Assembly (NCBI GenBank): GCA_036381035.1 | Contig: DASVDQ010000109.1 | Coordinates: 1-64,000 of the forward strand | DNA from: Trueperaceae bacterium | Lineage (GTDB): Bacteria > Deinococcota > Deinococci > Deinococcales > Trueperaceae | Length of the DNA: 64,000 bases | Direction of reading: 5' to 3' | Shown: piece by piece, positions 11,855 through 51,678 of the stretch | Layout of the letters: every line of letters begins with the position of its first letter | How positions within the stretch are numbered: position 1 is the stretch's first letter | Program-made: the position numbers and the translations under genes | Notes under the pieces: generated by a model | What the model was told of the DNA's origin: nothing | The model's input: only the letters and a program-made list of their open reading frames with translations | The model's database searches: none

Positions 11855-12241
11855 TCACTGCGCGCTGGTGAGGTCGGGGCGCAGCGAGCGGGCCTCGCGC
11901 AGGTAGACGTGCACCATCTCACGCTGCGAGCGACGCGTGTGCACCTGCATCATCACCCTGATGCAGCGCGGCAGTCGGCCCGGGACGGGGATCTCCTGGT
12001 TGCACAGCAGCGGCACCATGTCCATGCCCAGCTCGCGGGCGGCCTCGGCGGGGAACGTCGAGACGAGGTCGGGCGTGGTCGTGAAGAAGATCGCCGCGAT
12101 GCGGTCGTAGTCGGTCACGCCGTTCGCCTCGAGCATCGCCCCGAGGAGCTCGCGGGTGGCCGCGAGGATGAGGTCGGGGCGGTCCTCCGCCACGGTGATG
12201 GCGCCCCGCACCCCGCGCACCCAGTAGGGCCCGTCGTCCAT
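11855..12241 (-). CDS. aroH: Chorismate mutase, AroH type
   Basis: A monofunctional chorismate mutase (chorismate to prephenate) of the trimeric Bacillus AroH class, 128 residues. It begins VRGVRGAITVAEDRPDLI and contains FFTTTPDLVSTFPAEAARE, VPLLCNQEIPVPG and the C-terminal RCIRVMMQVHT with the catalytic arginine region. The ATG start has TAGACT (12254-12249) seven bases upstream, a leaderless arrangement. The acyl-CoA dehydrogenase gene is divergent, 66 bases away. Confidence 0.93.
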   Translation of the reverse strand: MDDGPYWVRGVRGAITVAEDRPDLILAATRELLGAMLEANGVTDYDRIAAIFFTTTPDLVSTFPAEAARELGMDMVPLLCNQEIPVPGRLPRCIRVMMQVHTRRSQREMVHVYLREARSLRPDLTSAQ

Positions 12242-12295
12242 GGCGCGGAGTCTACCAGCAGCCCCTGGGCGCCCCCGGGAGGGCTCCGCTACGTC

Positions 12296-45479: not shown

Positions 45480-46592
45480 ATGAGGGCGCTCCGCCTGCTC
45501 AAGGACGCGGCCAAGGCCTACCTCGACCGCTCCGGCCTGCCCTACGGGCAGCGCTTCCGCATGACGCGGCTCGGGTTCGCGCCCGAGTCGTACGTCATCT
45601 ACGAGTTCGACCGCAACGACCCGGCCGACTACCTGCCGAGCAGCCTCTGGGCCCCCCTCCACCGGCTGAACGGGCCCGTGGTCACCGAGATGCTCTCGAA
45701 CAAGCTGCTCTTCTGGTACGCGTTCGCCGGCGACGTGCCGATGCCCGCCGTGCTGGCCGCCGTCGTGAGCGGGCACGTGCGGCCCGTCGCCGACACCGCG
45801 CTGCGCAGCGCCGGCGCCGTCCTGGAGCTCGCCGCCCAGCGCCCCCTGATCCTCAAGCCGATGGGCGGCCAGAAGGGGAAGCGCGTCCACAGGCTCGAGT
45901 CGGAGGGCGGCCGGTACCTCCTCGACCACGCGCCGGTCGGCCGCGCCGAGGCGGAGGCGGCGCTCCTCGAGGGCGCCGCGACCCTCGTCGTCGAGCTGGC
46001 CCAGCAGGCGCCGTACGCCGCCGCCTTCAACCCGGGCAGCGTGAACACGATGCGGGTCGTGACCTTCGGGGGCGAGGGCACGGGCTACGCGCCGTTCGTC
46101 GCGGCCATCGCGCACCGCTTCGGGCGCGAGGGCACGGGACCCGTCGACAACGTCTCCTCGGGCGGCCTGATCGCCCGGGTCGACCTGGAGACCTACGAGA
46201 TCGGCCCCGCGGCCGGCTACCCCTTCGGCGCGAGGAGGCTCGTCTGGTACGACGAGCACCCCGACACCGGAGCGCGGATCGCCGGCGCCGTCGTGCCCGG
46301 GGCGGCGGCGGTCGTCGAACGCCTCCTGCGCCTCATGGAGGCGCACCCGTACCTCGTCTACGTCGGCTGGGACGTCGTGCTCACCGACGAGCGCGGGGGC
46401 TTCAGCGTGATCGAGGCGAACTACGGCGCAGGCCTGCAGATCCAGATGGTCGGCTTCCGCTACCTGCGCGACGAGCGCGTCGTCGCGTTCCTCGGGCACC
46501 ACGGCCTGCTGGACCAGGTCCCCGTCCTGCGCCGCCCGCCCGCGGCGGCGGGCCGGTCCGCCGGCGGACCGCCGGGCCGTCCAGCGGGTTGA
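45480..46592 (+). CDS. Sugar-transfer-associated ATP-grasp family protein
   Basis: A 370-residue protein resembling the ATP-grasp enzymes found beside glycosyltransferase and capsule genes. Landmarks: RLNGPVVTEMLSNKLLF, a phosphate-binding LILKPMGGQKGKRV, AAFNPGSVNTMRVVT, DNVSSGGLIARVD and metal-binding YVGWDVVLTDERGGFSVIEAN. No membrane segment; the tail is Pro/Gly/Ala-rich. The acceptor is unknown. It is 36 bases after pilT and may be cotranscribed. Its stop codon overlaps the -35 box of the leucine operon promoter. Confidence 0.8.
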   Translation: MRALRLLKDAAKAYLDRSGLPYGQRFRMTRLGFAPESYVIYEFDRNDPADYLPSSLWAPLHRLNGPVVTEMLSNKLLFWYAFAGDVPMPAVLAAVVSGHVRPVADTALRSAGAVLELAAQRPLILKPMGGQKGKRVHRLESEGGRYLLDHAPVGRAEAEAALLEGAATLVVELAQQAPYAAAFNPGSVNTMRVVTFGGEGTGYAPFVAAIAHRFGREGTGPVDNVSSGGLIARVDLETYEIGPAAGYPFGARRLVWYDEHPDTGARIAGAVVPGAAAVVERLLRLMEAHPYLVYVGWDVVLTDERGGFSVIEANYGAGLQIQMVGFRYLRDERVVAFLGHHGLLDQVPVLRRPPAAAGRSAGGPPGRPAG

Positions 46593-46619
46593 CCGGCCTC
46601 GCGACGGCCGCGATATACT
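46589..46619 (+). promoter_or_regulatory. Promoter of the leucine operon
   Basis: TTGACC (46589-46594) and TATACT (46614-46619), spacer 19; GATATA two bases earlier would give 17. The -10 box is seven bases before the leader-peptide ATG, so the transcript begins at or within a base or two of that codon. Confidence 0.75.
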
Positions 46620-46626
46620 CCGCGCC

Positions 46627-46704
46627 ATGCCCCTGGACAGCGTCAGCGCCCTGCTAGGCGTGGCGCGCCGCCTGAAGCTAGGCGGCGCGGGGTCGCAGGG
46701 TTAG
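46627..46704 (+). CDS. Leucine leader peptide (leuL-like)
   Basis: A 25-codon frame, MPLDSVSALLGVARRLKLGG followed by AGSQG and TAG. Five of 25 codons are leucine, two of them CTA, a codon otherwise rare in this genome (codons 10 and 18, beside CTG at 9 and 16). It lies between a strong promoter and an intrinsic-terminator-like hairpin ahead of leuC. Its RNA can fold into competing stems. This is the layout of ribosome-mediated transcription attenuation. No ribosome site is present, in keeping with a leaderless start. Confidence 0.78.
   Translation: MPLDSVSALLGVARRLKLGGAGSQG
46664..46689 (+). promoter_or_regulatory. Attenuator stem 1:2 within the leader frame
   Basis: CGCGCCGCCT and AGGCGGCGCG pair perfectly over 10 bp around GAAGCT, enclosing leucine codons 16 and 18. 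A ribosome held on those codons would open this stem. The following GGGGTCG (46689-46695) can pair with CGACCCC (46740-46746), the 5' arm of the terminator, as an antiterminator. A ribosome at the TAG stop (46702-46704) would cover GGGGTCG. Confidence 0.6.
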
Positions 46705-46740
46705 GACGCGCGCGCCCGGCGCGCCGGTTCGCACCGCCAC

Positions 46741-46770
46741 GACCCCCGGCCCCACCCGCGGCCGGGGGTC
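46741..46770 (+). terminator. Attenuator terminator hairpin before leuC
   Basis: GACCCCCGGCC and GGCCGGGGGTC form a perfect 11-bp stem with an 8-nt loop, followed by TTCCACTT. It lies 30 bases before leuC. The T-run is poor, but the stem is very strong and its 5' arm is shared with the proposed antiterminator. Confidence 0.75.
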
Positions 46771-46800
46771 TTCCACTTACTGCGGGCACGAGAGGTGACG

Positions 46801-48234
46801 ATGCCACAGCGGCCGAAGAGCCTGCTCGACAAGGTGTGGGACGCCCATGCGGTCCGCACCCTGCGGAGCGGTCAGACACAGCTCTTCATCGACACGCACC
46901 TGGTCCACGAGGTCACGAGCCCGCAGGCGTTCGCGATGCTGCGCGACCTGGGGCTTGAGGTGCTGATGCCCGAGCGCACGTTCGCGACGGTCGACCACAT
47001 CGTGCCGACGCACACGCGCGTCGAGCCGTTCGAGGACCCCATGGCCGCCGCGATGATCGCCCACCTCAGGCGGAACGTGGCCGAGCACGGCATCGCGTTC
47101 TTCGACGTCGGCACCGGGAGGCAGGGCATCGTGCACATGGTCGGCCCCGAGCTGGGCCTCACGCAGCCCGGCACGACGATCGCCTGCGGCGACAGCCACA
47201 CCAGCACGCACGGGGCTTTCGGGGCCATCGCGTTCGGCATCGGCACCACGCAGGTGCGCGACGTCCTCGCCACGCAGACGCTGGCGCTGTCGAAGCCGAA
47301 GCTGAGGCGCATCGAGGTGAACGGGCGCCTGGGCCCCGGCGTCTACGCCAAGGACGTGATCCTCCACATCATCAGGACGCTCGGCGTGAAGGGCGGGGTC
47401 GGCTACGCCTACGAGTACGCCGGCGACGTCTTCGACGCGATGAGCATGGAGGAGCGCATGACCGTCTGCAACATGTCCATCGAGGGCGGCGCGCGCTTCG
47501 GCTACGTGCAGCCCGACGAGACGACGGTCGCGTACCTGCGCGGACGCGAGTACGCCCCGCGGGGCGACGCCTGGGACGCGGCGGTCGAGCGCTGGCTCTC
47601 GTTCCGGTCCGACCCGGGGTGCGAGTACGACGACGTCGTCGAGATCCGGGCCGAGGACGTGCCGCCCACGGTCACCTGGGGCATCAACCCCGGACAGTCG
47701 GTCGCGATCGACGAGCCGGTGCCGCGGCCCGAGGACGTGCCAGAGGGCGAGCGGGCGTCGGTGGCCGAGGCGCTGGCGCACATGAAGCTCGAGGGCGGCC
47801 GGCCCCTGGTGGGCACGCCGGTGGACGTGGCCTTCCTGGGCTCCTGCACGAACGCGCGGCTCTCCGACTTCGTCGAGGTGGCCAAGGTGCTCGCCGGCCG
47901 CCGCGTGCACCCGCGCGTGAAGGCGATCGCCGTGCCCGGCTCCGAGCACGTCAAGAGCGAGTGCGAGCGGATCGGCATCGACCGGGTCTTCAAGGCCGCC
48001 GGCTTCGAGTGGCGCGACGCGGGCTGCTCGATGTGCCTGGCGATGAACCCCGACAAGCTCGTAGGCGACCAGCTCTGCGCCTCGTCTTCCAACCGCAACT
48101 TCAAGGGCAGGCAGGGCTCCCCCACCGGACGCACCGTGCTGATGAGCCCCGTGATGGTCGCCGCCGCGGCCGTCACCGGCGTGGTCTCCGACGCCCGCGA
48201 GGTGTTCGGCGTGGGCCGCGAGGTCGTGGCGTGA
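46801..48234 (+). CDS. leuC: 3-isopropylmalate dehydratase large subunit
   Basis: Isomerises 2- and 3-isopropylmalate in leucine synthesis with a [4Fe-4S] cluster. The 477 residues have [34 protein letters not shown], the GSCTNAR cysteine and the paired cysteines in [11 protein letters not shown], and [21 protein letters not shown] 46801 has AGAGGT four to five bases upstream; GTG 46795 is in frame but would sit inside that site. It overlaps leuD by four bases. Confidence 0.97.
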
Positions 48235-48835
48235 GCGCGTTCCAGCCCGTCGTCCGCGTCGTCGGCAGGGCCGTGGCGGTGCCGGGGAACGACATCGACA
48301 CCGACCGCATCATCCCCGCCCGGTACCTCAAGAGCGTCACCTTCGACGACCTCGGCGCGGCGCTGTTCGTCGACGAGCGCTTCGCGCCGGACGGCACGCC
48401 GAAGGGCCATCCGCTCGACGACCCGGCGCGCGCCGGCGCCACCGTTCTCGTCAGCGGCGCGAACTTCGGCTGCGGCTCGAGCCGCGAGCACGCCCCGCAG
48501 GCCATCTACCGCGCCGGCTTCAGGGCGGTGGTGGCCGGGAGCTTCGCCGAGATCTTCTTCGGCAACGCCACGGGCATCGGCCTGGCCTGCGTGCGCCTGG
48601 CGGAGGGCGACCTCTCCGACCTCACGCGCCGCGTGCAGGAGGACCCGGCGCTGGCTGTCACCGTCGACCTCGCGGCCATGCGGGTGGAGGCCGGCGGGCG
48701 AGGTTACGCTGCCGCCATGCCGGACAGCGCCAGGAACGCACTGCTGACGGGCACCTACGACCCCCTCGCCGAGCTCCTCGAGGGCCTTCCCGACGTGCGG
48801 CGGACGGCCGCCTCCCTCGGGCACGAGGTGCGCCG

Positions 48836-48839
<4 letters not shown>
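48231..48839 (+). CDS. leuD: 3-isopropylmalate dehydratase small subunit
   Basis: The swivelling-domain partner of LeuC, 202 residues. It shows [16 protein letters not shown], the catalytic serine loop [16 protein letters not shown] and [14 protein letters not shown]. The GTG start overlaps the leuC stop. The C-terminal codons GAGGTGCGCCGG-TGA are the source of the small duplications that follow. Confidence 0.97.

Positions 48840-51678
<2,839 letters not shown>

Follow-up and report, generated by a model that had tools for sequence, protein, structure and literature searches.

A predicted leucine attenuator with a leaderless leader reading frame upstream of leuCDB-ilvD in Trueperaceae

The leuC locus and its leader

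The window analysed here is a stretch of 64,000 nucleotides from a Trueperaceae genome (Deinococcota; hereafter the source genome), in which leuC, leuD, leuB and ilvD follow an ATP-grasp-like ORF (Table 1). The source genome has one close leuC, and the nearest named relatives of its product are Trueperaceae MAGs, with Meiothermus and Thermaceae also present, among Verrucomicrobia. An earlier note on this DNA, made from the letters alone, had described a promoter TTGACC/TATACT upstream of leuC, a frame of 25 codons that includes five for Leu (two of them CTA), an 11-bp and a 10-bp stem, and a complementarity between GGGGTCG and CGACCCC. We found the promoter and the frame exactly as described, base for base, and the coordinates of the paired segments are all correct.

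Table 1. Features in and around the leader of the leuC operon (positions in the window)
Feature	Position	Strand	Basis or remark
ATP-grasp-like ORF	45480..46592	+	only weak match to alpha-L-glutamate ligase-like family
-35 box of leuC operon, TTGACC	46589..46594	+	TTGACN in nearly all relatives' leaders
-10 box of leuC operon, TATACT	46614..46619	+	7 nt 5' of leader ATG
Leader ORF MPLDSVSALLGVARRLKLGGAGSQG	46627..46704	+	25 codons, ATG 46627-46629, stop TAG 46702-46704
CTA codon 10, regulatory (predicted)	46654..46656	+	CTA conservation in leaders
CTA codon 18, regulatory (predicted)	46678..46680	+	7 codons 5' of stop, likewise in nearest relative (G089)
Stem, perfect 10 bp (strands 1:2)	46664-46673/46680-46689	+	encloses Leu codons 16 and 18; would be opened by stalling of the ribosome at CTA18
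Antiterminator strand GGGGTCG (predicted)	46689..46695	+	complements CGACCCC 46740-46746; 13 to 7 nt 5' of stop codon
Terminator hairpin (predicted)	46741-46751/46760-46770	+	perfect 11 bp, loop of 8 nt; 30 bp between its end and leuC ATG
leuC Shine-Dalgarno region, AGAGGTG	46790..46800	+	sequence
leuC, 3-isopropylmalate dehydratase large subunit	46801..48234	+	NCBIfam; ATG 46801
leuD	48231..48839	+	GTG start inferred from frame, overlaps leuC stop; best NCBIfam matches are LeuD families, below cut-off (part scanned)
leuB	48912..50003	+	NCBIfam
ilvD	49996..51678	+	NCBIfam

The -35 box shares bases with the TGA stop of the ATP-grasp-like ORF, and the spacer between the two promoter boxes is long, 19 bp, compared with 17 in close relatives. 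Judged by the position of the -10 box, the transcript would start at about 46626-46627. The Leu codons of the leader are CTG at codons 3, 9 and 16 and CTA at codons 10 and 18. The terminator hairpin is the most conserved block among the six closest leaders, and the T-tract that follows it in the window, TTCCACTT (46771-46778), is weak; T-tracts are good in most Thermaceae leuC terminators. Folding, one of the checks suggested for this leader, gave a predicted whole-leader fold that is stable in the absence of a ribosome and only modestly better than that of shuffled sequences (z = -2.05). The terminator loop also holds a CCCGC (46755-46759) complementary to GCGGG (46782-46786) just 5' of the leuC ribosome site; each of the six closest leaders could form this pairing, one of them via G-U, and it is a possible pseudoknot.

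The -10 box stands directly before the start codon of the leader ORF, with no Shine-Dalgarno sequence. In Deinococcota, such -10-adjacent leaderless ORFs amount to about 30% of ORFs (PMC12340547), the -10 motif lying a few bases 5' of the start codon (PMC12340547, PMC3160421). The source genome follows this habit: the pattern TAKACT-N7-ATG occurs at 20 sites and its reversed control at none, and TTGAC...TAnnnT...ATG occurs at 15 sites versus 2 for the control. Five related genomes show an excess of promoter-adjacent ATG codons over control in the same direction, and in the relatives' leaders the distance from the -10 box to the ATG is mostly 6-8 nt, and 9-10 nt in a few. Leaderless initiation is thus real in this genome and normal for the phylum, and the earlier suggestion that the sensor frame itself is leaderless is supported by the 7-nt distance, by the control and by its recurrence in relatives. 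An ordinary leaderless gene elsewhere in the window, chorismate mutase-like, has TAGACT 7 nt 5' of its ATG (12239-12254, minus strand).

Conservation of the leader and choice of its codons

From a set of 111 genomes we compared 81 leuC upstream regions, those of 80 related genomes and of the window, with family names assigned by inference from named LeuC matches. No Deinococcaceae were identified among the 111 genomes searched, and the conservation described here covers the families reached. An automatic search for a -35 box, a -10 box and a short ORF returned 67 leaders including that of the window, 66 of which carry CTA; the sole exception (L174) looks degenerate. Five further leaders were found by eye, four of them in one genus with the ATG 10 nt after the -10 box. 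Altogether a leaderless or near-leaderless ORF with CTA, its ATG 6-10 nt after the -10 box, precedes leuC in at least 71 of the 81 regions, a count of non-independent events, as the leaders come from related genera. Of the other nine regions, three are truncated at the end of a contig, three come from a group whose LeuC is distant, and three show no clear leader. The last CTA lies mostly 5-8 codons before the leader stop and is followed by the terminator hairpin, and the order of promoter, start, CTA codons, stop and terminator is the same across Trueperaceae, Thermaceae and relatives. One leuC leader (L132, genome G100) keeps the promoter and the CRLRFIQRGGFLFL peptide pattern and reads ACG at the start and CTG at the CTA position; it is either a decayed leader or a sequence error.

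What is conserved is the CTA codon. The total number of Leu codons per leader varies, and in the Meiothermus group there are leaders in which Leu is encoded only once, nearly always by CTA. Of the Leu codons noted earlier, the CTA codons are the important ones; many Leu codons as a requirement for the sensor were dropped in view of the single-Leu leaders. CTA is a rare codon in this genome, 18 of 1,698 Leu codons (1.06%) in 42 genes of the window, so that two or more CTA among five Leu codons have a chance probability of 0.0011, and it makes up 52% of Leu codons in the leaders versus 1.1% in the window's genes. On sequence comparison, conservation argues against chance far more strongly than either CTA frequency or the fold. 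Rare CUA control codons are classical, and replacing CUA with CUG in the Salmonella leu attenuator lowers its sensitivity (PMC1183508).

A second conserved element was found in the leader peptides of Trueperaceae. The motif RRRL stands exactly 14 to 11 residues before the invariant CTA in 25 of 30 leuC leaders of this family (the 25 lying within L114-L120, L123-L130 and L133-L148), rows chosen by requiring R at -12 and L at -11 with -14 and -13 left free; at these unselected positions R occurs in 25 of 25 (-14) and in 24 with K in one (-13). The spacing is fixed to the CTA and not to the ATG, the motif starting anywhere from codon 4 to codon 14. The four RRRL codons use all six Arg codons and have pS = 0.67, close to saturation, and pN = 0.07 (ratio 0.11), with pN/pS ratios near 1 in the sequence that flanks the CTA. 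An origin of the motif at the RNA level was rejected, since third codon positions are free. Where RRRL is present, the leader usually has just one CTA near the control site (23 of 25), and where it is absent two or more are the rule (27 of 38); Fisher's test gives P = 5e-7 overall and 0.02 within Trueperaceae, values that are optimistic for related leaders. The window's leader lacks the spacing (it reads ARRL-K-CTA) and has two CTAs, so that conservation of the kind expected of an arrest peptide is found in the 25 relatives and not in the window; a deletion would fit the way it aligns with its nearest relatives.

The predicted switch and its alternatives

The leader has the codons of the amino acid made by its operon, five Leu including two CTA among 25, as leu-type attenuators do. 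We consider that it is very probably a leucine-responsive, ribosome-mediated transcription attenuator of leuCDB-ilvD, with a sensor ORF on a leaderless mRNA that would sense charged Leu-tRNA. This was the reading originally proposed, and it gains support from the ordered recurrence in relatives and from the same design before cognate genes in the source genome, described below. RNA polymerase would start at about 46626/46627 and a ribosome would load on the 5'-terminal AUG without a Shine-Dalgarno sequence. With ample Leu-tRNA, it would read CTA10 and CTA18, reach the TAG at 46702 and cover 46689-46695, upon which the terminator (46741-46770) would form and transcription would stop before leuC. 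If the Leu-tRNA reading CTA were scarce, the ribosome would wait at CTA10 or CTA18, and 46689-46695 would stay free to pair with 46740-46746, allowing transcription of the operon. Sequence and comparison establish the parts with their order and conservation, the bias towards rare codons and the leaderless layout; from them we infer the transcript start, the response to leucine and termination in vivo.

The pairing step varies among families. In a stalled-ribosome model, the terminator 5' arm pairs with RNA upstream of it at 0.60 when the ribosome waits at the last CTA and at 0.21 when it has reached the stop (mean of 66 leaders). In Thermaceae, complementarity to that arm peaks over a stretch that begins 12 nt before the leader stop and ends 4 nt after it, about 6.3 kcal/mol better than in shuffles of the same composition (t = -9.7, n = 31), and by position this optimum coincides with the footprint of a terminating ribosome at the stop. 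In Trueperaceae, the window included, the pooled signal is weak (best t = -2.4), with its peak 21-12 nt before the stop. The window's own helix has only 7 bp, and with CTA18 occupying the A site two bases of the antiterminator strand would already lie under the ribosome. In modelled pre-terminator folds the GGGGTCG:CGACCCC helix is formed with the ribosome at CTA10, reduced to 5 bp at CTA18 and gone at the TAG; the modelled equilibrium pairing of the terminator 5' arm, 0.47 stalled versus 0.67 at the stop, gives no separation and counts as negative evidence for the window. The five closest relatives have GGGxGGCGTGA in place of this strand, facing TCACGACCCCCG, so that the pairing is retained by different bases. 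An antiterminator switch in the window itself is plausible, not proven.

Other explanations of the same parts deserve consideration. The ATP-grasp-like ORF ends at 46592 and no other terminator was recognised before 46741, so the hairpin might be its plain terminator and the 25-codon frame a product of chance, a view with which the weak T-tract also agrees; the hairpin, however, sits 3' of the leuC promoter, with 30 bp left to leuC, and this view is highly improbable, being contradicted by the phylum-wide recurrence of the promoter, the CTA frame and the hairpin in this order. Hardly more credible, and if anything less so, is a leader that is never translated, with a protein or another RNA ligand controlling the terminator: the fold is indeed stable without a ribosome, but CTA is kept at the level of the codon, an in-frame stop is present, and the segment 46560-46860 matches no Rfam leader family (Leu_leader, for example) at the gathering threshold or at E up to 1, nor does the source genome hold a T-box (RF00230), a model that gave its control matches in B. 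subtilis and others. Control of translation, in which the leader ribosome would re-initiate on, or expose, the leuC ribosome site, has a precedent in the proposal that leader genes near a structural gene raise its translation via re-initiation (PMC4833913), and the loop pairing near the Shine-Dalgarno sequence noted above would suit it. We nonetheless regard it as unlikely, as re-initiation would have to bridge the 96 nt between the leader stop and the leuC ATG, which is too far, the Shine-Dalgarno sequence is outside the hairpin, and Thermaceae terminators have proper T-tracts.

An extension of the attenuator, which we entertain as a serious possibility while leaning somewhat against it, is that the nascent peptide assists the pause, RRRL in the exit tunnel strengthening or gating it when the ribosome is at CTA, so that in most Trueperaceae the sensor would be peptide plus codon. 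The fixed spacing of the motif, its low pN/pS ratio and the sufficiency of one CTA in most leaders that carry it all point this way; against it stand the window's own leader, the Thermaceae leaders, which are too short for the motif, the effect of kinship on the Fisher values and the preselection of two of the four motif positions.

Similar leaders, known systems and significance

Attenuation at leuC, as preferred here, would belong to a wider set. In the source genome, leaderless leaders with hairpins also precede genes that we named from their translated sequences and not by family search: ilvB (L201; CTG CTA CTA), leuS (L207; CTA GAC CTA), pheS (L200; TTT), an AspRS gene (L202; the Asn/Asp codons AAT and GAC GAC GAT) and a DAHP synthase gene (L199; Tyr/Phe codons, with TAT). 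Counterparts exist in three further genomes, before ilvB, pheS and the DAHP synthase and AspRS genes in G083, before ilvB, pheS, leuS and the AspRS gene in G092, and before leuS and the AspRS gene in G108. Before trpB, a genome of the Meiothermus group (G031) carries a leaderless leader rich in Trp, MRPRTPRSYKWHHQRWWRRPA, together with a hairpin (L243). DAHP-synthase leaders of two genera (L199 and L222) have the peptide EDGYGY in common. The genes of the window avoid TTT (0 of 374 Phe codons), AAT (0 of 216 Asn) and TAT (3 of 275 Tyr), and the leaders of the source genome place these avoided codons at control sites. Somewhat short of an even chance, in our estimate, is the full generalization that Deinococcota hold a regulon of leaderless attenuators keyed to genome-avoided codons, before amino-acid and aminoacyl-tRNA-synthetase genes, in which the Trueperaceae leuC sensor consists of a single invariant CTA plus RRRL 11-14 residues upstream and the window's leader is a derived form that has lost the spacing and has two CTAs.

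In E. coli the leu operon begins with leuA. The enterobacterial leu attenuator (leuL of Salmonella and E. coli) resembles the present one in its Leu-codon leader ORF, its CTA control codons and, as predicted here, a terminator/antiterminator switch near the stop codon, and differs in that the Deinococcota leader is leaderless, has usually one to three CTA and no long adjacent Leu run, stands before leuC as first gene and does not match the Rfam leader models. The leaderless arrangement, which the earlier note did not know from the classical cases, has a precedent in mycobacteria, where short leaderless uORFs with the codons of the operon's amino acid control downstream cysteine operons (Canestrari 2020, as cited in PMC9031893 and PMC9094748; also PMC4633059). 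The leu leader of Deinococcota is consequently a variant and not a novel kind, because leaderless attenuator ORFs were already published for those cysteine genes. PMC9031893 and PMC13236596 describe the cysteine ORFs as acting on downstream translation, whereas in the window a terminator lies between; here, moreover, the amino acid is Leu and the control codons are rare synonyms. The uORF attenuator of M. tuberculosis ilvB1NC also has branched-chain amino acid codons and, as predicted for the window, an intrinsic terminator and an antiterminator masked by a ribosome at the stop; its unusually long 166-nt leader is not described as leaderless in the part of the source available (PMC13236596).

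A Thermus leu leader is said to have been reported long ago; our literature search for a Thermus leu attenuator gave nothing relevant. The literature searched contained no leaderless attenuators in Deinococcota, no such set of synthetase and biosynthesis genes and no RRRL-CTA rule, and a text search of PMC12340547 for leader peptides, attenuation or short ORFs gave nothing; the link of leaderless expression in Deinococcota to attenuation is, as far as we found, new.

If this is true, much of a phylum senses charged tRNA by leaderless translation, in a development separate from that of the mycobacterial cysteine genes. The proposal would predict that leaders are translated only on transcripts from their own promoter, that control sites use the synonyms which the genome avoids, and that aminoacyl-tRNA synthetases are under leader-ORF control where the T-box is not found. 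With the RRRL-11-CTA rule, furthermore, one could ask in a clean setting whether the pauses of ribosomes at hungry codons are tuned by nascent chains.
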